Under the pieces are notes generated by a model, which was given only the letters and a program-made list of their open reading frames with translations, was not told the origin of the DNA and did no database searches. Of a stretch of 64,000 bases of DNA, positions 27,346 to 64,000 are shown piece after piece; positions within the stretch are counted from its first letter, which is position 1; each line of letters begins with the position of its first letter. The stretch is from contig NZ_SLXG01000010.1 of NCBI RefSeq assembly GCF_004345725.1, forward strand, positions 1-64,000. Direction: 5' to 3'. The position numbers were made by a program, and so were the translations under genes. The DNA comes from Crenobacter luteus (lineage in GTDB: Bacteria; Pseudomonadota; Gammaproteobacteria; Burkholderiales; Chromobacteriaceae).

Positions 27346-27378
27346 AGGTTGGCCGAGCCTTGGGGGCTCGGCCAACCT
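27346..27378. repeat. Inverted pair of TTGGCCGAG words forming a hairpin
   Basis: AGGTTGGCCGAGCC (27346-27359) and its exact reverse complement (27365-27378) are separated by 5 bases, giving a 14-base perfect stem between the pgm stop and prmB start. On the minus strand the T run lies before the stem, so it is a poor intrinsic terminator. It resembles the inverted uptake-sequence pairs found at gene ends in Neisseria. Confidence 0.7.
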
Positions 27379-54849: not shown

Positions 54850-55368
54850 TCAGCTCTGCCCGGCGACGCAGCGCGGAGCGTCGGCCGCGTCGTCGTGCCG
54901 GCGGCGCTGCTGGATCAGTTCGGCGAGGATGGACACCGCGATCTCGGCCGGCGTGCGGCTGCCGATGGCCAGGCCGATCGGCGCGCAGAGGCGATCGAGG
55001 CGCGTCGCGTCGACGCCGCGTGCGGCCAGACGCGCGCGGCGCGCGGCGGCGTTGGCGCGCGAGCCGATCGCGCCGACGTAGAAGGCCCCGGTTTCGAGCG
55101 CCGCGGCCAGCGCCGCGTCGTCGAGCTCGGGTACGTGGGTCAGCGCGAGCACCGCGGTGCGCGCGTCCGGGCGCGCGTTGTGCACGGCCTCGTCGGGCGC
55201 GCCGGCCAGCCAGTCGCTGCCGGCCAGCGGCCAGGCGGCGCGCCGGTCCTCGCGCGGCTCGTTCAGCAGTACGGCGAAGTCGAGCGCCGGCGCGATGCGC
55301 GCGAGGTGTTCGGATACCTGGCCGGCGCCGACGAGGATCAGGCGCCAGGCGGGATCGGATGCGGGCAT
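54850..55368 (-). CDS. XdhC-family protein, C-terminal domain only
   Basis: A 172-residue protein corresponding to the Rossmann-like C-terminal domain of XdhC (LILVGAGQVSEHLARIAPALDFAV, AVLALTHVPELDDAALAAAL, YVGAIGSRANAAARRARL, IGSRTPAEIAVSILAELIQ). Full XdhC helps insert sulfurated molybdenum cofactor into xanthine dehydrogenase. The N-terminal XdhC/CoxI domain is absent, and no xanthine dehydrogenase is nearby. Third gene of an rpe-SDR-xdhC run. Confidence 0.8.
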   Translation of the reverse strand: MPASDPAWRLILVGAGQVSEHLARIAPALDFAVLLNEPREDRRAAWPLAGSDWLAGAPDEAVHNARPDARTAVLALTHVPELDDAALAAALETGAFYVGAIGSRANAAARRARLAARGVDATRLDRLCAPIGLAIGSRTPAEIAVSILAELIQQRRRHDDAADAPRCVAGQS

Positions 55369-55411
55369 GGGAAGCGCTCCGGCAAAGAGTGGAAAACGGG
55401 CGGCGGCGGGC

Positions 55412-56191
55412 TCAGGCCTTGCGTTCGCGCAGGTCGACCACCGCCTCGGCGCCGAAGTCGGCCGAGGCGAGGAAGGCGACGATGGCGCGCGCGGCGTTCT
55501 CGGGCGGGGTCAGCGCGCCGTCGGCCTTGAGCGCGGTAAAGCGTGCGCGGTTCGGGAAGTCGGCCGGATCGGCGGCGCGGATGGTCGCCTGCATGCCGGT
55601 GTCGATCACGCCGGGGTAGAGCGACACCAGGCGCGCGCCATGCGGTCGCGCGGCCTGCTCGAGCGCGACGGTGCGCGTGAACTGGTCGAGCGCCGCCTTG
55701 CTGCTGCCGTACACGCTCCAGCCCGGGTAAGGCTTGACCGCCGCGCCCGACGAGACGTTCAGCACGCGGCGCGTCACGCCTCGGCCAACGTTGGCCGAGG
55801 CCTGCGGCTCGGTTTCGCGCAGGAAGGCGTCGGTCAGCGCGACCGGCGCCAGCAGGTTGACCGCGTAGGCGGCGACCATGTCGTCGACGGCGTAGTGGCC
55901 GGCCGGCGCGATCGGCGTGACGACGCCGGCGTTGTTGACCAGCGTCAGCGCGGTCGGCGCGTGCGCGGCGAGGAGGGCGAGCGCGTCGCGGCAGAGCCCG
56001 GCGAGGCTCGCGGTGTCGGCGAGGTCCGCCTCGACGAAGGCAAAGCGCTCCGGGTAGGCCTCGGCCAACGTTTGTGTCTCGGGCGAGGCATGGCGGGCGA
56101 GGCCGACCACCGCGCCGCCGGATTCGAGCAGCGCGGCGGCGAGCGCGGCGCCGAGGCCGCGCGACGCGCCGGTGACGATGACGCCGTGCAT
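55412..56191 (-). CDS. Short-chain dehydrogenase/reductase
   Basis: A 259-residue SDR oxidoreductase. NAD(P) motif GASRGLGAAL (about 8-17), NNAG (near 90), catalytic Ser in VLNVSSGAA and YxxxK in SVYGSSKAALDQ. Resembles sepiapterin/benzil reductase-like SDRs; substrate unknown. The stretch QASANVGRG is encoded by a head-to-head pair of TTGGCCGAG words (55780-55799) just before the catalytic strand, a position where other SDRs are shorter as far as I recall. It starts 4 bases after rpe. Confidence 0.87.
   Translation of the reverse strand: MHGVIVTGASRGLGAALAAALLESGGAVVGLARHASPETQTLAEAYPERFAFVEADLADTASLAGLCRDALALLAAHAPTALTLVNNAGVVTPIAPAGHYAVDDMVAAYAVNLLAPVALTDAFLRETEPQASANVGRGVTRRVLNVSSGAAVKPYPGWSVYGSSKAALDQFTRTVALEQAARPHGARLVSLYPGVIDTGMQATIRAADPADFPNRARFTALKADGALTPPENAARAIVAFLASADFGAEAVVDLRERKA
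55780..55799. repeat. 20-base palindrome made of two TTGGCCGAG words, inside a gene
   Basis: CTCGGCCAACGTTGGCCGAG, with two inverted copies separated by CG. It lies in frame in the SDR gene, encoding Ser-Ala-Asn-Val-Gly-Arg. A further copy occurs in the same gene at 56060. Confidence 0.7.
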
Positions 56192-56195
56192 CGCC

Positions 56196-56876
56196 TTAGC
56201 CGACGCGGGCTAGCTCGGCGCGCATCGCGTCGATCACCGCCTTGTAGTCGGGCTGGCCGAAGATCGCGCTGCCGGCGACGAAGGTGTCGGCGCCCGCCGC
56301 GGCCACCTCGGCGATGTTGTCGACCTTGATGCCGCCGTCGACCTCGAGCCAGATCTCGCCGCCGTGTTGTGCGGTGTACTCGTCGATGCGGCGGCGCGCC
56401 TCGCGCACCTTGTTCAGCGTCTGCGGGATGAACTTCTGGCCGCCGAAGCCCGGGTTGACCGACATCAGCAGGATCATGTCGACCTTGTCCATCACGTGGT
56501 CGAGGAAGGACAGCGGGGTGGCCGGGTTGAACACCAGACCGGCCTTGCAGCCGGCGTCGCGGATCAGGCCGAGCGTGCGGTCGATGTGGTGCGACGCTTC
56601 CGGGTGGAAGGTGATGATGTCGGCGCCGGCACGGGCGAAGCTGGCGGCGAGCGCGTCGACCGGTGTCACCATCAGGTGCACGTCGATCGGCGCGCTGGTG
56701 TGCGGACGGATCGCCTCGCAGACCAGCGGGCCGATGGTCATGTTCGGCACGTAGTGGTTGTCCATCACGTCGAAGTGGACGATGTCGGCGCCGGCGGCGA
56801 CGACGTTCTTCACTTCTTCGCCGAGGCGGGCGAAGTCGGCGGACAGGATGCTCGGGGCGATGCGGAAGGTGCGCAT
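56196..56876 (-). CDS. rpe: Ribulose-phosphate 3-epimerase
   Basis: A 226-residue TIM-barrel enzyme interconverting ribulose-5-P and xylulose-5-[18 protein letters not shown] at the start, metal site [44 protein letters not shown] and [11 protein letters not shown] near the C-terminus are all present. Upstream of the SDR gene with a 4-base gap. Confidence 0.95.
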
Positions 56877-57032
56877 GGAAATTCCGGTAATGAAGGGGGT
56901 GGACGGGGCGTATTTTAGAGCGTCGGGCGGCGGCGGTCACGGCCGGCCTGGTCGGGTTGGCCCGGCGCACGGGCGCGTGCGCCGGCTTCGGGATAAAATG
57001 ACGGTCCAACCATGCAGGGAGCGGCTCTACCG

Positions 57033-57413
57033 ATGTCCGACAACCAATACCGTATCGAGGTGTCGCCCGCGGCCTACTTCGTCGAGGAGCAGTCCGACGT
57101 GGCGGCCGACCGCTACGTGTTCGCCTACCGCATCCGCATCGTCAACACCGGTCAGCAGCCGGCCAAGCTGCTCAGCCGCCACTGGCTGATCACCGACGCC
57201 AACGGCCACGTGCAGGAGGTGCGCGGCATGGGCGTGGTCGGCGAGCATCCGCACCTGAAGCCGGGCGAGCACTACGAGTACCTGAGCGGCGCGACGCTGA
57301 CGACGCCGTGGGGCACGATGAAGGGCAGCTACCAGATGGAGGCCGACGACGGCACCCGTTTCGACGCGCCGATCGCCGAATTCCTGCTGGCGGTGCCGCG
57401 CGTGCTGCACTGA
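57033..57413 (+). CDS. apaG: ApaG protein (Co2+/Mg2+ homeostasis)
   Basis: A 126-residue ApaG/DUF525 beta-sandwich protein linked to cobalt-magnesium resistance and, by its fold, to protein binding. Family hallmarks FAYRIRIVNTGQQPAKLLSRHWLITDANG, VRGMGVVGEHPHLKPGE, YLSGATLTTPWGTMKG. ATG 57033 (MSDNQYRIEV) gives the usual length; the ATG at 57012 would add seven residues and lacks an RBS. Confidence 0.92.
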   Translation: MSDNQYRIEVSPAAYFVEEQSDVAADRYVFAYRIRIVNTGQQPAKLLSRHWLITDANGHVQEVRGMGVVGEHPHLKPGEHYEYLSGATLTTPWGTMKGSYQMEADDGTRFDAPIAEFLLAVPRVLH

Positions 57414-57421
57414 AGCGCCGC

Positions 57422-57505
57422 TCACTTGCCGCGCGGCCAGGTCCACCACACGATGAAGCCGGCCAGGCCCAGCGCCAGCAAGGCTTCGAGAACGAATATC
57501 CACAT
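57422..57505 (-). CDS. 27-residue single-helix membrane peptide
   Basis: Reading leftward from ATG 57505 gives MWIFVLEALLALGLAGFIVW, then WTWPRGK and a stop: one hydrophobic helix with a positively charged tail. It lies just after convergent apaG in an otherwise empty gap. Clean helix composition and a basic end argue for a real small protein, but the RBS is weak and no homologue can be checked here. Confidence 0.45.
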   Translation of the reverse strand: MWIFVLEALLALGLAGFIVWWTWPRGK

Positions 57506-57591
57506 AGCGTTGCACTCGTCGTCGATTGACCTCTGAAGCATAGTTGGCCGACGGGGCGGGCGCAGCGCGCGACACCCGTCCGGAAGGCTCC

Positions 57592-59379
57592 ATGCGCTTC
57601 ACCCACACCGGCCCCGCGCCGAAAAACCGCAACGACTGGCAGACGCTCAGGACGCTGTTTCCCTATATCTGGACCTTCAAGGGACGGGTGCTGGCCGCGC
57701 TGGCCTGCCTGATCGTCGCCAAGGTCGCCAACGTCTCGGTGCCGCTGTACCTGAAGGACATCGTCGACGCGCTGTCGCTGCCGGCGACGCCCCTGGCGCT
57801 GCCGGTGGCGGCGCTGGCCGGCTACGGCCTGGCGCGGCTGGCGGCCAGCCTGCTCGGCGAGCTGCGCGACGCGATCTTCGCGCGCGTCACGCAGGGCGCG
57901 ATCCACCAGGTCGCGCGCTCGGTGTTCGACCACCTGTTCCGGCTGTCGCTGCGCTTTCACCTCGAGCGCCAGACCGGCGGCATGAGCCGCGACATCGAGC
58001 GCGGCACCAAGGGCATCGGCTTTTTGCTGAACTTCATGGTGTTCAACATCCTGCCGACGCTGGTCGAGATCGGCCTGGTCGCCGGCATCCTCTTGACGCG
58101 CTATAGCGGCTGGTTCGCCGCGGTGACGCTCGGCACCATCGCGCTCTACGTCGCGTTCACGCTGGCGGTCACCGAGTGGCGCATGGTGTTCCGCCGCAGC
58201 ATGAACGAGCTCGACTCCAAGGCCAACTCGAAGGCGATCGACGCGCTGCTGAACTACGAGACGGTCAAGTATTTCGGCAACGAGCGCTACGAGGTCGACC
58301 GCTACGACCGCAACCTCGCCAGCTGGGAGGCGTCGGCGGTCAAGAACCAGGTGTCGCTGTCGATGCTGAACGCCGGCCAGGGCTTCATCATCGCCGCCGG
58401 CGTGACGCTGCTGATGTGGCTGGCGGCGCGCGGCGTGACCGGCGGCACGATGACGGTCGGCGACGTGGTGCTGGTGTCGGCCTACCTGACGCAGTTGTAC
58501 GCGCCGCTGAACTTCCTCGGCTTCGTCTACCGCGAGATCAAGCACTCGCTGGCCGACATGGAGCGCATGTTCAAGCTCCTGGACGCCGGCGCCGAGGTCG
58601 GCGACGCGCCCGGCGCCACGCCGCTGGCCACCCGCGCGGCGACGGTCGAGTTCGACGGCGTCGACTTCGGCTACGACGACAAGCGGCAGATCCTCGCCGG
58701 CGTCAGCTTCGCGATCCCGGCCGGCCAGACGCTGGCGGTGGTCGGCAGCTCGGGCGCCGGCAAGAGCACGCTCTCAAGGCTGCTGTTCCGTTTCTACGAC
58801 GTGAACGGCGGCGCGATCCGCGTCAACGGCACCGACATCCGCGCGCTGACGCAGGACTCCCTGCGCGCGCACATCGGTATCGTCCCGCAGGACACGGTGC
58901 TGTTCAACGACAGCATCTACTACAACATCGCCTACGGCCGGCCGGACGCGAGCCGCGACGAGGTGATCGAGGCGGCGAAGTCGGCGCACATCCACGACTT
59001 CGTGATGAGCCTGCCCGACGGCTACGACACCCAGGTCGGCGAGCGCGGCCTGAAGCTGTCCGGCGGCGAGAAGCAGCGCGTCGCGATCGCGCGCACCATC
59101 CTGAAAAACCCGCCTATCCTGATCTTCGACGAGGCGACCAGCGCGCTCGATTCGCGCACCGAAAAGGCGATCCAGGCTGAGCTGGCGCAGATCTCGGCCG
59201 ACCGCACCACGCTGATCATCGCGCACCGGCTGTCGACCGTCGTCGACGCCGACCGCATCCTGGTGATGGAGGGCGGCCGGGTGGTCGAGTCGGGCAGCCA
59301 CCGCGAGCTGGTCGAGGCGGGCGGCCGCTACGCCGAGATGTGGCGGCTGCAGCAGGAGAGCGAGCCGGAGGCGGTGTAG
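57592..59379 (+). CDS. ATM1-type ABC transporter, fused permease-ATPase
   Basis: A 595-residue half-transporter, expected to work as a homodimer. Six membrane helices in the first ~300 residues with the ATM1/HMT1 segment YFGNERYEVDRYD. Then the ATPase: Walker A GSSGAGKST, signature LSGGEKQRVAIART, Walker B LIFDEATSALDSRT, H-loop IIAHRLSTV. ATM1-type exporters move glutathione-linked metal or sulfur compounds out of the cytoplasm. Start ATG 57592 has GGAAGG upstream. It ends at a terminator built from two TTGGCCGAG words. Confidence 0.9.
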   Translation: MRFTHTGPAPKNRNDWQTLRTLFPYIWTFKGRVLAALACLIVAKVANVSVPLYLKDIVDALSLPATPLALPVAALAGYGLARLAASLLGELRDAIFARVTQGAIHQVARSVFDHLFRLSLRFHLERQTGGMSRDIERGTKGIGFLLNFMVFNILPTLVEIGLVAGILLTRYSGWFAAVTLGTIALYVAFTLAVTEWRMVFRRSMNELDSKANSKAIDALLNYETVKYFGNERYEVDRYDRNLASWEASAVKNQVSLSMLNAGQGFIIAAGVTLLMWLAARGVTGGTMTVGDVVLVSAYLTQLYAPLNFLGFVYREIKHSLADMERMFKLLDAGAEVGDAPGATPLATRAATVEFDGVDFGYDDKRQILAGVSFAIPAGQTLAVVGSSGAGKSTLSRLLFRFYDVNGGAIRVNGTDIRALTQDSLRAHIGIVPQDTVLFNDSIYYNIAYGRPDASRDEVIEAAKSAHIHDFVMSLPDGYDTQVGERGLKLSGGEKQRVAIARTILKNPPILIFDEATSALDSRTEKAIQAELAQISADRTTLIIAHRLSTVVDADRILVMEGGRVVESGSHRELVEAGGRYAEMWRLQQESEPEAV

Positions 59380-59400
59380 GCCCCGGCGGCGCGGACGTGA

Positions 59401-59439
59401 AAAAGCTCGGCCAACCTTCAAGGTTGGCCGAGCTTTTTT
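59401..59439. terminator. Terminator built from an inverted pair of TTGGCCGAG words
   Basis: A 19-base stem (59401-59419 and 59421-59439) begins with AAAAAGCTCGG and ends in a T run; the inner parts are AAGGTTGGCCGAGC and its complement. It lies between the convergent ABC exporter and nudC genes and serves both. Confidence 0.93.
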
Positions 59440-59459
59440 CTGGAACCGGTAGGCGGGTT

Positions 59460-60245
59460 TCAGCGCGCCGCCATGCGCGCCAGCGTCCGCTCGATCAGCC
59501 AGTGCGCGATCGACGGCTTGTTCGGCGTCGCCGGCAGCGCGTCGCGCGCGAACCAGCGCGCGTCCTCGATCTCGCCCTCCTGCGGCGTCAGCTCGCCGCC
59601 GGCGTATTCGGCGGTGAAGGCGAGCATCAGCGAGTGCGGGAAGGGCCACGACTGCGAGCCCAGGTACACCGGCGCGCCGATGTAGACGCCGACTTCCTCG
59701 AAGCACTCGCGGCGCACGCAGTCCTCGAGCGTCTCGCCCGGCTCGACGAAGCCGGCGATCGCGCTGTAGACGCCGGGCTGGAAGTGCGGCGAGCGCGCCA
59801 GCAGGATCTCGTCGCCGCGCGTGACGGTCAGCATCATCGCCGGCGACACGCGCGGGTAGTAGACCTCGCCGCAGCTCGGGCAGCCGCGCCCCTGGTCGTG
59901 CGCGTGCTGCGCAAGCGGCGTGCCGCAGGCGCCGCACAGCCGGTGCGTCTTCTGGAAGCGGCGGATCTGCGCGGCGCGCGCCAGCGCCGGCACGTCGTCG
60001 GCCGGCAACTGCGTCAGCGCCGCGCGCAGCGGCAGCCACACGCCGGCCGGCGCGGCGCCGACCAGTTCGCCGAGGTAGAGGTTGGCGCCGGCGTGCACGC
60101 CGAGAAAGCGCCGTCCGGCCACCGGCCAGCCGGCCGCCTCGGCGCCGGGCAGCGCGCCGTCGATCAGCAGCACCGCGCCGTCGTCGAACAGGCAGAAGCG
60201 GTCGGGCAGGGCGGGGTCGGCGGCGGCGGGGATGACGAAGGGCAT
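59460..60245 (-). CDS. nudC: NADH pyrophosphatase / NAD-cap hydrolase
   Basis: A 261-residue Nudix hydrolase splitting NADH and removing NAD caps from RNA. Zn ribbon CGACGTPL...CPSC, Nudix box GFVEPGETLEDCVRRECFEEVGV. The NudC-specific motif normally SQPWPFPxS reads SQSWPFPHS here (Pro to Ser at the third place), a mild deviation. Transcribed toward the ABC exporter gene. Confidence 0.92.
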   Translation of the reverse strand: MPFVIPAAADPALPDRFCLFDDGAVLLIDGALPGAEAAGWPVAGRRFLGVHAGANLYLGELVGAAPAGVWLPLRAALTQLPADDVPALARAAQIRRFQKTHRLCGACGTPLAQHAHDQGRGCPSCGEVYYPRVSPAMMLTVTRGDEILLARSPHFQPGVYSAIAGFVEPGETLEDCVRRECFEEVGVYIGAPVYLGSQSWPFPHSLMLAFTAEYAGGELTPQEGEIEDARWFARDALPATPNKPSIAHWLIERTLARMAAR

Positions 60246-60317
60246 GGCGGTGGGCGGCGGAGGAATCGGGCCGACAGTGTAACGCGCGCGCCGCGCGGCG
60301 GTACAGCCGGCCTAGGC

Positions 60318-61445
60318 TCAGTTGCGCCCCGGTTCGCCGTACATCCAGCGCTCGCTCGCCTGCTGCACCACGTCGGACAGCGAGCCGCTGTCGGCGTGGA
60401 TGTCGCGCAGCCACTGGCTGTCGATATTGCGCTTGAGCACCCGCTCGCGCAGCTGCGCGTGCTCGGACTCGGCGCCCAGCGCGATCGCGTGCGGCGTCAG
60501 CGCGTTCAGCGTCTCGAGCATGTCCTCCAGCAGGCTGGTCTGGCGCTGGCTGGCCGCGTCGACCAGCACCGCGTCGTAGCCGAAGCGGCAAGCCTGGAAG
60601 CGGTTGTAGCTGTAGGTCAGCTGGCGGTCCGGGTGGATGTCGTTCCAGTCCTCCTCGAAGCAGCGGCGCGCCAGCATCTGCGCGTAGGCGGCCAGCAGCA
60701 CCGGCGTGTCGATCGCCAGTGGCGTGTCGCAGATGCGGATCTCGACCGTGCCGTACTCGGGCTTGGGGCGGATGTCCCAGTAGAAGTCCTTCATCGACTC
60801 GACGATGCCCAGGTGCGCCATGCGCGCGAAGTAGTCGTTGAATTCGTCCCAGTTCTTCACCATCGGCATGCTGCCCGACAACGGGAAGGCGTTGACGCTG
60901 GTCAGCCGCGAGGTCTGGAACAGCGTGTCGACGCCCTGGTGGAACGGCGACGACGCCGACAGCGCGATGAAGTGCGGAATGTAGCGCGCCAGGTAGTGCG
61001 TCAGCCGCACCGCGACGTCGCCGTTAGGGCAGCCGATATGGATGTGCTGGCCGTAGACGGTGAACTGCTTGGCGAGGTAGCCGTACAGCTCGGAGACCAG
61101 CCGGTAGCGCTCCTTCGGGTAGATGCGCTGGTCGCTCCAGTGCTGGAACGGGTGGCTGCCGCCGCCGGAAAGCCCGAGGTTGAGCTTCTCGGCGCTCTTG
61201 ACCAGCAGCGCGCGGATCGCCAAGAGCTCGGCCAACATCGCGCGCGTGTCGCGGTGGACGGCGGTGCCGATCTCGATCATGCCCTGCGTGATCTCGGGCT
61301 TGATGTCGAAGCCGTGTTGTTCGCGGCCGATCAGCGCCAACAGGTCGTCCGAGCCGCGCGTCAGGTTGTAGTGGCGGCGGTTGACGATCATCAGCTCGAG
61401 CTCGACGCCCAGCGTCAGCGGCTCGCTGTTGGAAAATTCGAGCAT
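60318..61445 (-). CDS. ybdK: Carboxylate-amine ligase YbdK (weak glutamate-cysteine ligase)
   Basis: A 375-residue GCS2-family enzyme. N-terminal TLGVELELMIVN, GLSGGGSHPFQHWSDQRIYP, VYGQHIHIGCPN and the substrate-site GTVEIRICDTP are all in place. E. coli YbdK has weak gamma-glutamylcysteine synthetase activity; physiological substrate unknown. It follows the CPA2 antiporter gene by 9 bases on the same strand. One TTGGCCGAG copy (61227). Confidence 0.93.
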   Translation of the reverse strand: MLEFSNSEPLTLGVELELMIVNRRHYNLTRGSDDLLALIGREQHGFDIKPEITQGMIEIGTAVHRDTRAMLAELLAIRALLVKSAEKLNLGLSGGGSHPFQHWSDQRIYPKERYRLVSELYGYLAKQFTVYGQHIHIGCPNGDVAVRLTHYLARYIPHFIALSASSPFHQGVDTLFQTSRLTSVNAFPLSGSMPMVKNWDEFNDYFARMAHLGIVESMKDFYWDIRPKPEYGTVEIRICDTPLAIDTPVLLAAYAQMLARRCFEEDWNDIHPDRQLTYSYNRFQACRFGYDAVLVDAASQRQTSLLEDMLETLNALTPHAIALGAESEHAQLRERVLKRNIDSQWLRDIHADSGSLSDVVQQASERWMYGEPGRN

Positions 61446-61454
61446 GGCGGTCTC

Positions 61455-62642
61455 CTATTCGCGGGTTTCGCCGGACAGCCGCAGCGACAGCCGCGTCATC
61501 ACCGGGCCGATCAGTTCGAGGATGCACAGCGCGGCCAGCAGCGCGCCGGTCGCCACGCCCGCCTCGAGCATCGGGCTGGCGAGCAAGAGCAGCGTGAACG
61601 CGCCGCCGGACAGCGGCATCGCCGCCAGGCCGAGCAGCGCGCCCTGTTTGAGCGACAGGCCGTTGAAGCGCGCCGCCGCCAGCCAGCAGGCGACGCTGAC
61701 GCCCAGCCGCACCAGCACGTAGAGCAGCGCGACCGGCCAGTACATCGATAGCGAGGCCGGCGACAGCAGCGCGCCGGAGGCGACGAAGAAGGCGACGAAG
61801 AAGATGTGGCTGCGGCTGAGCAGGTCGGGCTCGGCGACGGTCTGGCCGCGCCTGAGGTTCTGCGACGCCATGCCGAACACGAGGAGCGCCATCGCCGGCA
61901 GCGTCTCCAGGAGTTCGGCGACGCCGACCACCAGCGCGATCAGCGCGAACAGCAGCACCTGCTGCGCACGCCGTTCGCCGCCGCCGAGCCAGGCGTTGAG
62001 CCGGATCGCCGCCATGCCGGCGACGAGGCCCAGCGCCGCCGAGCCGAGCATCAACCAGGCGGTCGACAGCAGCTTGTCGCCCGGCGCGGCCGAGTCGGCG
62101 ACGCCCGAGTAGGCGAGCGCGAGGCCGAAGGCCATCAGCGCGAACAGCGTGTTCAGCCCGGTCGCGGTCGCCAGCCGCTCGCTGACCTGGCCCTCGGCGC
62201 GCGTTTCGCGGACAATTTCGAGGATCACCGCCGGGCTGGTCGCGACGCCGATCGCCGCCAGCAGTGCCGCGCCGACCGGCTTGAGGCCGAAGGACAGCAA
62301 TAGCGCGTACAGCGCGACAAAGATCAACAGCGAGGTCAGCGCCGAGGTGCTCAGCAGCGCGGTCTCGCGCCTGAGCCAGTGCAGGTCGATGCGCCGGCCG
62401 ATCTCGAACAGCGCCAGGCCCAGCGCCAGTTCGACGAACAGGCTGGCCTGGCTCAATGCCTGGTTGCCGACCAGGCCGAGGCCGGCCGGGCCGATCACCA
62501 GGCCGGCGAGCAGGTAGCCGGTGACGCCGGGCAGGCGGGCGACGCGCGTCGCGACCTGGCCGCCGATCGCGCCGAGCAGCAGCAAGAGGCCGAAGGCCGC
62601 CAAGGGGTTGAAGGACAGGGTGTGCCAGGAAAGGCCGTCCAT
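61455..62642 (-). CDS. Cation:proton antiporter, CPA2 family (KefB-like, no TrkA-N)
   Basis: A 395-residue integral membrane protein with about 11-12 helices, no C-terminal TrkA-N domain. RLPGVTGYLLAGLVIGPAGLG and GIATSPAVILEIVRE-type segments are typical of CPA2 exchangers. ATG 62642 (MDGLSWHTLSF) has GAGGGAGA upstream; the longer start adds a polar tail. It is upstream of ybdK. Ion specificity cannot be read. Confidence 0.87.
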   Translation of the reverse strand: MDGLSWHTLSFNPLAAFGLLLLLGAIGGQVATRVARLPGVTGYLLAGLVIGPAGLGLVGNQALSQASLFVELALGLALFEIGRRIDLHWLRRETALLSTSALTSLLIFVALYALLLSFGLKPVGAALLAAIGVATSPAVILEIVRETRAEGQVSERLATATGLNTLFALMAFGLALAYSGVADSAAPGDKLLSTAWLMLGSAALGLVAGMAAIRLNAWLGGGERRAQQVLLFALIALVVGVAELLETLPAMALLVFGMASQNLRRGQTVAEPDLLSRSHIFFVAFFVASGALLSPASLSMYWPVALLYVLVRLGVSVACWLAAARFNGLSLKQGALLGLAAMPLSGGAFTLLLLASPMLEAGVATGALLAALCILELIGPVMTRLSLRLSGETRE

Positions 62643-62794
62643 GAGCGTTTCTCCCTCTGGGGTCTCCCGTCTTGTTGCGGGGTGACCGGGTGGCAAGGTT
62701 GGCCGAAGGCCGGGGCGTGACCCGTGCCGCGGTGGCGCGGGCTTGCCAATGGAATGACTATCTTAACGGTGACAGGTCGCGCAGGGGGAAGTTC

Positions 62795-63619
62795 ATGGTC
62801 TGGTTCGGATGGGGGCGGCGCAGCAAGGGGCGGCAGGCCGAACGCGCCGCGCGCGACAAACGGCTCGCCGGGCGCACGCGCGGCGTGCCGCTGACGGCGA
62901 CGCTGGCGGACGAGGCGGTCGGCCGACTGGTCGCGCTGGCCGGCGCCATGCTCGACGGCAAGGATTTCGTCGCGGCCGGCGGGCTGGCCTGGGACGACGC
63001 GATCGGCGAGACGATCGCGCTGCAGGCCGCGCTGCCGGCGCTGGAGCTGGGCGCGGCGGCGCTCGAGGGCTGGCGCGAGATCATCGTCTACCCGGACGCC
63101 TTCGTCGCACGCGACCTGTGGGTCGACGACGCCGGGCTGATGCACGAGGGCGAGCAGGTGCTGGTCGGCCAGGCGCGCCACGACGGGCCGGTGGTGCTGT
63201 CGGCGCCCGACGCGCACGACTCGCTCGCGCTCGACGGCTGGAACGTCGTGATCCACGAAATCGCGCACAAGATCGACATGCTGTCCGGCGACGCCAACGG
63301 CTGCCCGCCGTTGCACAAGGGCATGAGTCGCGACGAGTGGGCCGATAGCTGGGGCGAGGGCTACGAGCGCTTTTGCGCCGCGCTCGATGCCGGCGAAGAG
63401 GGCTGGCTCGACCCCTACGCGGCCGAACACCCGGCCGAATTCTTCGCGGTGCTGTCGGAGTACTTCTTCGAGGCGCCGCACTGGGTGCGCGACGATTTTC
63501 CGCAAATCTACCGGCAGTTGTCGCTATTCTACCGGCAGGATCCGGCGGCCCGTCTGGCGCGCCTGCCGCTGTCCGTTCTGCTGTCCGGCCAGGGTGCGAC
63601 CGGCGCGGGCGGCGTCTAG
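62795..63619 (+). CDS. mtfA: Zinc metallopeptidase MtfA (Mlc titration factor)
   Basis: A 274-residue M90-family aminopeptidase-like protein. Catalytic HEIAHKIDMLSGDANG (HExxH) and a downstream Glu in HPAEFFAVLSEYFFE. E. coli MtfA binds the repressor Mlc and so links to glucose uptake. ATG 62795 (MVWFGWGRR) follows a GGGGGAAG site. The MtfA gene is alone except for a small gene 26 bases later. Confidence 0.92.
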   Translation: MVWFGWGRRSKGRQAERAARDKRLAGRTRGVPLTATLADEAVGRLVALAGAMLDGKDFVAAGGLAWDDAIGETIALQAALPALELGAAALEGWREIIVYPDAFVARDLWVDDAGLMHEGEQVLVGQARHDGPVVLSAPDAHDSLALDGWNVVIHEIAHKIDMLSGDANGCPPLHKGMSRDEWADSWGEGYERFCAALDAGEEGWLDPYAAEHPAEFFAVLSEYFFEAPHWVRDDFPQIYRQLSLFYRQDPAARLARLPLSVLLSGQGATGAGGV

Positions 63620-63645
63620 CCGCCGGTTCCGTCGAGGAGACGACG

Positions 63646-63918
63646 ATGATCTATCTGGTGGGGCGCCACCGGGTCAGCGATTACGCGCGCTGGAAGGCGG
63701 CGTTCGACGGGCGGGCCGAGGCGCGCCGGGCGGCCGGCCTCGAACTGCTGCAGTGCTGGCGCGCGCTCGACGACCCCGGCAATGTGTTCTTCGTGTTCGA
63801 GGTCGCCGACCTGGCCCGTGCGCGCGCCTTCGTCGTGCGCTGGGACGACGCGCCCGGGACGTTCGAGTCGGAGTTGCATTTCGTCGAGCGCGCCGCCGGC
63901 TGCCCACCGTGCGGCTGA
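63646..63918 (+). CDS. Small hypothetical protein, ferredoxin-like fold (ABM/DUF type)
   Basis: A 90-residue protein (IYLVGRHRVSDYARWKAAFD, LLQCWRALDDPGNVFFVFEV) with the alternating strand-helix pattern of small alpha/beta 'antibiotic biosynthesis monooxygenase-like' domains. GAGGAG 6 bases upstream of ATG 63646 supports the start. Function unknown. Confidence 0.75.
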   Translation: MIYLVGRHRVSDYARWKAAFDGRAEARRAAGLELLQCWRALDDPGNVFFVFEVADLARARAFVVRWDDAPGTFESELHFVERAAGCPPCG

Positions 63919-64000
63919 GCAGGTGGCGGCCCTGCGGGCGGTGCGCTCCGTTCAGGCTGCCCGGCCGTGAGCCGGCGCGCCTTGGCCGCTGCGGGGCAGG

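Follow-up and report, generated by a model that had tools for sequence, protein, structure and literature searches.

An inverted pair of a short, highly repeated DNA word lies between an ABC exporter gene and a nudC-type gene in the window (the whole stretch of 64,000 nucleotides that was analysed). As judged from the sequence, positions 59400-59438 very probably act as a bidirectional Rho-independent terminator common to these two convergent genes. Pairs of this kind recur throughout the window's genome. The terminator mechanism is ordinary; the unusual part is the word of which it is made, and we lean towards the view that this word marks DNA as self for uptake during natural transformation.

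An inverted word pair between two convergent genes

The features of the site are the following.

59400..59439, unstranded: inverted word pair with A5 and T6 runs, predicted bidirectional intrinsic terminator (19-nt repeat, fold)
59406..59415, minus strand: left copy of the 10-mer GTTGGCCGAG (word search)
59423..59432, plus strand: right copy of the 10-mer GTTGGCCGAG (word search)
57592..59379, plus strand: ABC exporter gene, convergent neighbour (PF00664 and PF00005 above cut-offs)
59460..60245, minus strand: nudC-type NADH pyrophosphatase (NUDIX) gene, convergent neighbour (PF00293 and PF09297 above cut-offs)

The start codon of the ABC exporter gene is uncertain (57544 or 57592, depending on the gene call). 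The stop codons of the two genes end at 59379 (plus strand) and 59460 (minus strand), with 26 nt from the first of these to the left word and 27 nt from the right word to the second. From 59400 to 59439 the order is five A, the reversed word, a short central part, the forward word and a run of six T. The inverted repeat itself occupies 59400-59438, and its arms (59400-59418 and 59420-59438) are 19 nt each, 100% complementary and separated by a 1-nt spacer. Within it the 14-mer AAGGTTGGCCGAGC is found at 59405-59418 (minus) and 59420-59433 (plus), and the A-run (59400-59404) and the T-run (59434-59439) lie outside the two words. The initial annotation had described the stem as two complete 14-base words in opposite orientation with A and T runs outside, which the sequence bears out. 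The site it had placed at 59401-59439 is real, with the borders corrected to a repeat at 59400-59438 plus one more T. The 14-base word is present twice as claimed; what is over-represented, however, is the 10-mer GTTGGCCGAG.

RNA of 59396-59442 folds with -32.0 kcal/mol on the plus and -30.9 kcal/mol on the minus strand, against shuffle means of -10.8 and -10.0, and none of 200 dinucleotide shuffles matched the native fold on either strand. The features of an intrinsic terminator are thus found at 59400-59439: a stable GC-rich hairpin with a T-run after it, just past a stop codon. A generic terminator scan of 55000-64000 did not return this site and found two others, against 3.2 in shuffles; the site was presumably missed because its stem absorbs the T-run, a limit of the scan's rule.

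From whichever side RNA polymerase arrives, its transcript would contain a copy of the word followed by the complement, and would fold into a hairpin of 18-19 bp with a 3-nt loop. An A-U tract with U after it would form the base of this hairpin, and transcription would stop. The reason for which the genome keeps about 1600 copies of the word would be a different one, most likely a function as uptake tag, and such a standing supply on both strands would allow hairpins to be recruited easily at gene ends. Recruitment of uptake-word copies into gene-end hairpins was proposed for Neisseria by Kingsford et al. (PMC1852404).

The word is abundant and selected at the DNA level

The 10-mer GTTGGCCGAG has 34 copies in the window and 1590 in the window's genome (G000), 788 forward and 802 reverse, where the reversed-letter control gave 8 and 15 (23). 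In a sister species of the same genus (G001) 1940 copies were counted, with 21 for the control. The 14-mer AAGGTTGGCCGAGC, a subset of the 10-mer, reaches only 5 copies in the window and 169 in G000. Among the 30 one-mismatch forms of GTTGGCCGAG, 17 do not occur in the window at all. Like a DUS, it is thus short and numbers many hundreds to thousands of copies, distributed over both strands.

The word is selected at the DNA level and bends codon choice. In LAE tripeptides of G000, leucine is encoded by TTG in 285 of 509 cases, compared with 2009 of 28436 over all leucines (about 8-fold), and the corresponding counts in G001 are 109/192 and 1098/11234 (about 6-fold). SAN tripeptides are spelled TCGGCCAAC in 96 of 109 cases in G000 and in 31 of 37 in G001.

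Two other readings of the repeat were rejected. REP and BIME extragenic palindromes are confined to intergenic DNA, whereas words outside complement-first pairs are mostly intragenic (370/422 in the G000 sample and 126/187 in the G001 sample). Chi and KOPS-type sites show strand polarity along the chromosome; strand bias of the word was not significant in 8 of 9 stretches, the sole exception being contig 1 of G000 (84 to 52, p = 0.01). A search for the pair pattern (gap 0-12) in a named genome-contig collection, from which near relatives were possibly excluded, returned 37 stretches with one pair each, from bacteria and archaea of many phyla, and these are taken as chance matches. No publication on such a word in this family was found among open-licence papers; those listed for the bare letter strings bear titles on other topics.

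Inverted pairs are enriched at gene ends genome-wide

We define a complement-first pair as the complement followed by the word within 24 nt, the arrangement of the site at 59400-59438. G000 contains 86 complement-first and 30 word-first pairs, with 5.5 of each expected from random word placement; the reversed-letter control gave no complement-first pair. Genes were called in an 864-kb sample of G000 (the window together with 800 kb from contigs 1-5, of 68.4% G+C) using a home-made codon model, seeded with six window genes and iterated. In this sample, 22 of 24 complement-first pairs are intergenic and 14 of these 22 lie between convergent genes; for random 28-mers (4000 draws) the values are 9.7% intergenic and 1.8% in convergent gaps. 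A facing stop codon within 60 nt was found for 30 of 33 pairs of both arrangements, compared with 24 of 404 other words (Fisher p = 2.9e-28) and 196 of 5000 random places. In a 400-kb sample of G001, 15 of 19 pairs and 39 of 177 other words had a facing stop within this distance (p = 1.3e-6); intergenic calls are less sure in G001 because called genes cover just 78-85% of the sample.

Seen from the genes, 27 of 171 convergent ends in G000 have an exact complement-first pair within the next 90 nt, versus 8 of 613 other ends, and in G001 the numbers are 13 of 105 versus 4 of 212; in these counts one pair between convergent genes can count twice, once per gene. Our terminator finder was crude, crediting 19 convergent ends of G000 with a word-bearing terminator as against 27 with an exact pair, and the pair counts were used alone with the finder's credits set aside. 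Aligned pairs follow a common plan, namely an A-run, a few bases, the complement, the centre, the word, a few bases and a T-run, and in the 16 intergenic gapped pairs of G000 the nearest facing stop is 16-47 nt away. A genome-wide comparison of inverted pairs with stop codons had been put forward as a check; the pairs proved strongly enriched past stop codons, and the claim of a terminator assembled from the word pair is supported both at this site and across the genome.

Pairs fall into different kinds. A T-run was defined as 5 or more T within 10 nt. Of the 17 gapped complement-first pairs (7-23 nt) in the G000 sample, 16 are flanked by such a run on one side or both. Two words can also form a gapless 20-bp palindrome; 6 of 7 of these lie at gene ends and 2 of 7 have T-runs, and word-first pairs have T-runs in 3 of 9. 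Since these two groups mostly lack T-runs, not every pair is a canonical terminator; they may be weaker terminators or something else. The window holds one example of each.

27348..27376, unstranded: word-first inverted pair between two minus-strand genes, with a strong hairpin and no T-run directly after
55780..55799, unstranded: gapless two-word palindrome inside a short-chain dehydrogenase gene

Conservation of the junction

At the orthologous junction after nudC in G001 the pair structure is kept and the centre differs. Two other pair junctions of G000 were found in the G001 sample, one with a pair, in the same arrangement and with a different gap, and one without a pair that still holds a word. 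A third hit, with 59% identity over part of the protein, was discarded because it is not an orthologue. A nudC-type gene was detected in 39 of 41 family genomes (E <= 0.001), a count that includes some weak matches to other NUDIX genes. In other genera (e.g. g3, g5 and several g6 genomes) ordinary terminator-like hairpins follow nudC, and in g4 an inverted repeat of that genus's own word, without a T-run, was read in 5 of 7 genomes.

Dialects of the word across the family

In the family, the word or one of its dialects (GTTGGCCGAA, GTTGGCCGCA) was found with inverted pairs in seven of the ten genera sampled. Dialects were surveyed as the top 10-mer in 100-kb samples per genome (40 kb for G012). 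This was GTTGGCCGAA in g2, g3, g5, g6 (G006) and g10, and GTTGGCCGCA in g4; a comparable top 10-mer was absent from the samples of g7, g8 and g9. Bearers of the word or a dialect within the family are G002-G006, G010-G013, G018, G019 and G033. G006 has a second frequent 10-mer beside GTTGGCCGAA, namely GTTTGCCGAA, with 20 copies in 100 kb versus 1.1 expected.

In whole genomes, GTTGGCCGMR occurs 2164-2348 times in the three g4 genomes drawn and 1442 times in G006, compared with 86-109 in three other g6 genomes and at most 221 in every non-family genome (draw of 300). GTTKGCCGAA was counted in 61 family genomes: copies number 2190 in G003, 1984 in G006, 1888 in G010, 1281 in G005, 1132 in G002, 922 in G011, 604 in G012 and 205 in G018 (84% complete), whereas the count does not exceed 90 in the remaining nine g6 genomes or in any g7, g8 or g9 genome. 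G006 alone of ten g6 genomes is word-rich, and the word is therefore patchy even within g6.

Complement-first and word-first pairs were counted as 30/29 in G002, 64/41 in G003, 151/113 in G004, 22/40 in G005, 14/20 in G006, 28/50 in G010, 21/27 in G011, 18/11 in G012, 155/111 in G013, 162/97 in G019 and 134/94 in G033. Dialect pairs were 0/0 in G015 (g7), 0/0 in G032 (g8) and 1/0 in G017 (g9), and 1/0 in G001, which uses the other dialect. As the counts differ among genera, the strong arrangement bias of the window's genus (86/30) is not universal.

Comparison with DUS, USS and ordinary terminators

Word-pair terminators had been called a known feature of neisserial DUS, and this is confirmed by Kingsford et al. 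2007 (PMC1852404) and Frye et al. 2013 (PMC3630211), both of which report paired DUS at terminators. The likeness to the DUS of Neisseriaceae, as described in the two papers, includes a word of 10-12 bases, about 1000-6000 copies and genus-specific dialects, and extends to inverted pairs at gene ends, chiefly between convergent genes, with A/T tails (PMC3630211, PMC1852404). There are also differences. All eight DUS dialects given by Frye et al. have CTG at +6 to +8 and A at +10 (PMC3630211), whereas the core of the present word is CCG in the best ungapped alignment; at +10 the window's genus has G, while the GTTGGCCGAA and GTTGGCCGCA dialects have A, as in DUS. According to Kingsford et al., paired-DUS terminators of Neisseria are mostly word-first because the A/T-rich 5' end of the extended DUS makes the tails (PMC1852404). 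In contrast, the window's genus favours complement-first pairs (86 to 30), with the T-run after the 3' end of the word. The proposal of the initial annotation that the word has the same kind of evolutionary history as DUS is supported in part only. Selection of the word as DNA and genus-specific dialects agree with it; the CTG core is absent, the receptor matches are not diagnostic, and the favoured arrangement is opposite to that of Neisseria if the word is oriented by the best DUS alignment.

Six DUS 10-mers that were tried have 1-8 copies each in the 864-kb G000 sample. In ungapped comparison, the AGGTTGGCCGAA 12-mer has 9/12 identities with simDUS and AG-mucDUS, which 196 of 20000 shuffles reach. 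AGGTTGGCCGAG, the form of the window's genus, has 8 identities with DUS, equalled by 1144 of 20000 shuffles, and AGGTTGGCCGCA has 8, equalled by 1541. The resemblance to DUS is suggestive for the AA dialect and weak for the others. With regard to terminators the word acts like a DUS, yet it is outside the published DUS description.

Outside the DUS-bearing clade, the genomes of Laribacter, Lutiella, Pseudogulbenkiania and two Chromobacterium were without an obvious DUS in the survey of Frye et al., who inferred that DUS-based transformation arose after the split from Chromobacterium violaceum (PMC3630211). We infer that the family studied here stands close to these DUS-less genomes. One of the words described here may already be in Table S1D of that paper, which lists over-represented 10-mers of five DUS-less genomes.

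The case also resembles Pasteurellaceae USS in that an uptake word is recruited for the stems of inverted-pair terminators (Kingsford et al., PMC1852404); the sequences, however, are unrelated, and the USS 9-mer AAGTGCGGT occurs once in the G000 sample and never in the G001 sample. With ordinary intrinsic terminators the site shares the GC-rich stem, the T-run and the position just past stop codons. Unlike them, it has arms that are two copies of one genome-wide word, and both strands are served.

Uptake machinery

ComEC (PF03772) was found in 12 of 12 family genomes tested, word-bearing or not, and in 10 of 14 controls; since it is present with or without the word, it does not discriminate. 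ComP_DUS (PF16732) has matches in all 61 family genomes searched, in 98 of the 120 searched from the order and in 0 of 14 controls. Matches so widespread single out no receptor, their presence being independent of the word, and with 98 of 120 genomes of the order matching they were dropped as receptor evidence. The best matches in G000 and G001 lie among other minor-pilin genes, as judged from translations.

Possible roles of the word and of the hairpin

An uptake tag is the role that we favour for the word, with some reserve. It is conceivable, and we put it forward tentatively, that this tag belongs to a DUS-type system homologous to that of Neisseriaceae, with a CCG core, in a related family, predating the split. 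At least three dialects in seven genera, with losses elsewhere, would then be its traces, and the site at 59400-59438 would be a by-product. Such self-DNA tags seem not to have been described before in these relatives of Neisseria. If the dialects of one word in seven genera are tags, either the origin of DUS was earlier or uptake words arise repeatedly, and the dialects form a natural series for finding the receptor.

It is somewhat unlikely, though a real possibility, that the word is another kind of repeated DNA site, bound by a nucleoid, replication or modification protein, with the pairs still being terminators. The missing CTG core and the lack of a diagnostic receptor agree with such a site, and proteins could bind the gapless 20-bp palindromes that lie at gene ends and lack T-runs. 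Against it, genus-specific single-base dialects and inverted-pair terminators are both known for DUS, 8 of 9 stretches show no Chi/KOPS-like polarity (the ninth has p = 0.01), and there is no REP-like confinement to intergenic DNA, 370 of 422 words outside complement-first pairs being intragenic in the G000 sample.

We consider it improbable that the main role of the hairpin is to shield mRNA 3' ends or to insulate the two genes, termination being upstream or Rho-dependent: T-runs are mostly missing from gapless and word-first pairs, as this would allow, but the layout at 59400-59439 is canonical, with six T after the stem on the plus strand and five on the minus strand. That the terminator is an ordinary one, its arms agreeing with a frequent word through chance or base composition, would suit a GC-rich genome (69% G+C in the window) and the ordinary terminators after nudC in several other genera (g3, g5, several g6), but is next to impossible given 86 exact pairs against 5.5 expected from word placement, none in the reversed-letter control, and the 17 of 30 one-mismatch forms without a copy in the window.

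Word-poor DNA

Word-poor stretches would fit a word that marks long-resident DNA. The G000 sample contains two word-free stretches of 13.8 kb. One of them has no obvious mobile genes (its genes are not mobile-looking, as judged from translations only), which counts against an uptake role. The other (L096, contig 5, about 22-36 kb) encodes a phage-type integrase, a Toprim protein, and Csy3 and Csy4 of type I-F CRISPR. In G001, a region of about 50 kb (L102-L104, about 26-77 kb) has a single word and 58% G+C; from translations only, it holds type I restriction and recombinase-like genes, and it is probably acquired DNA.
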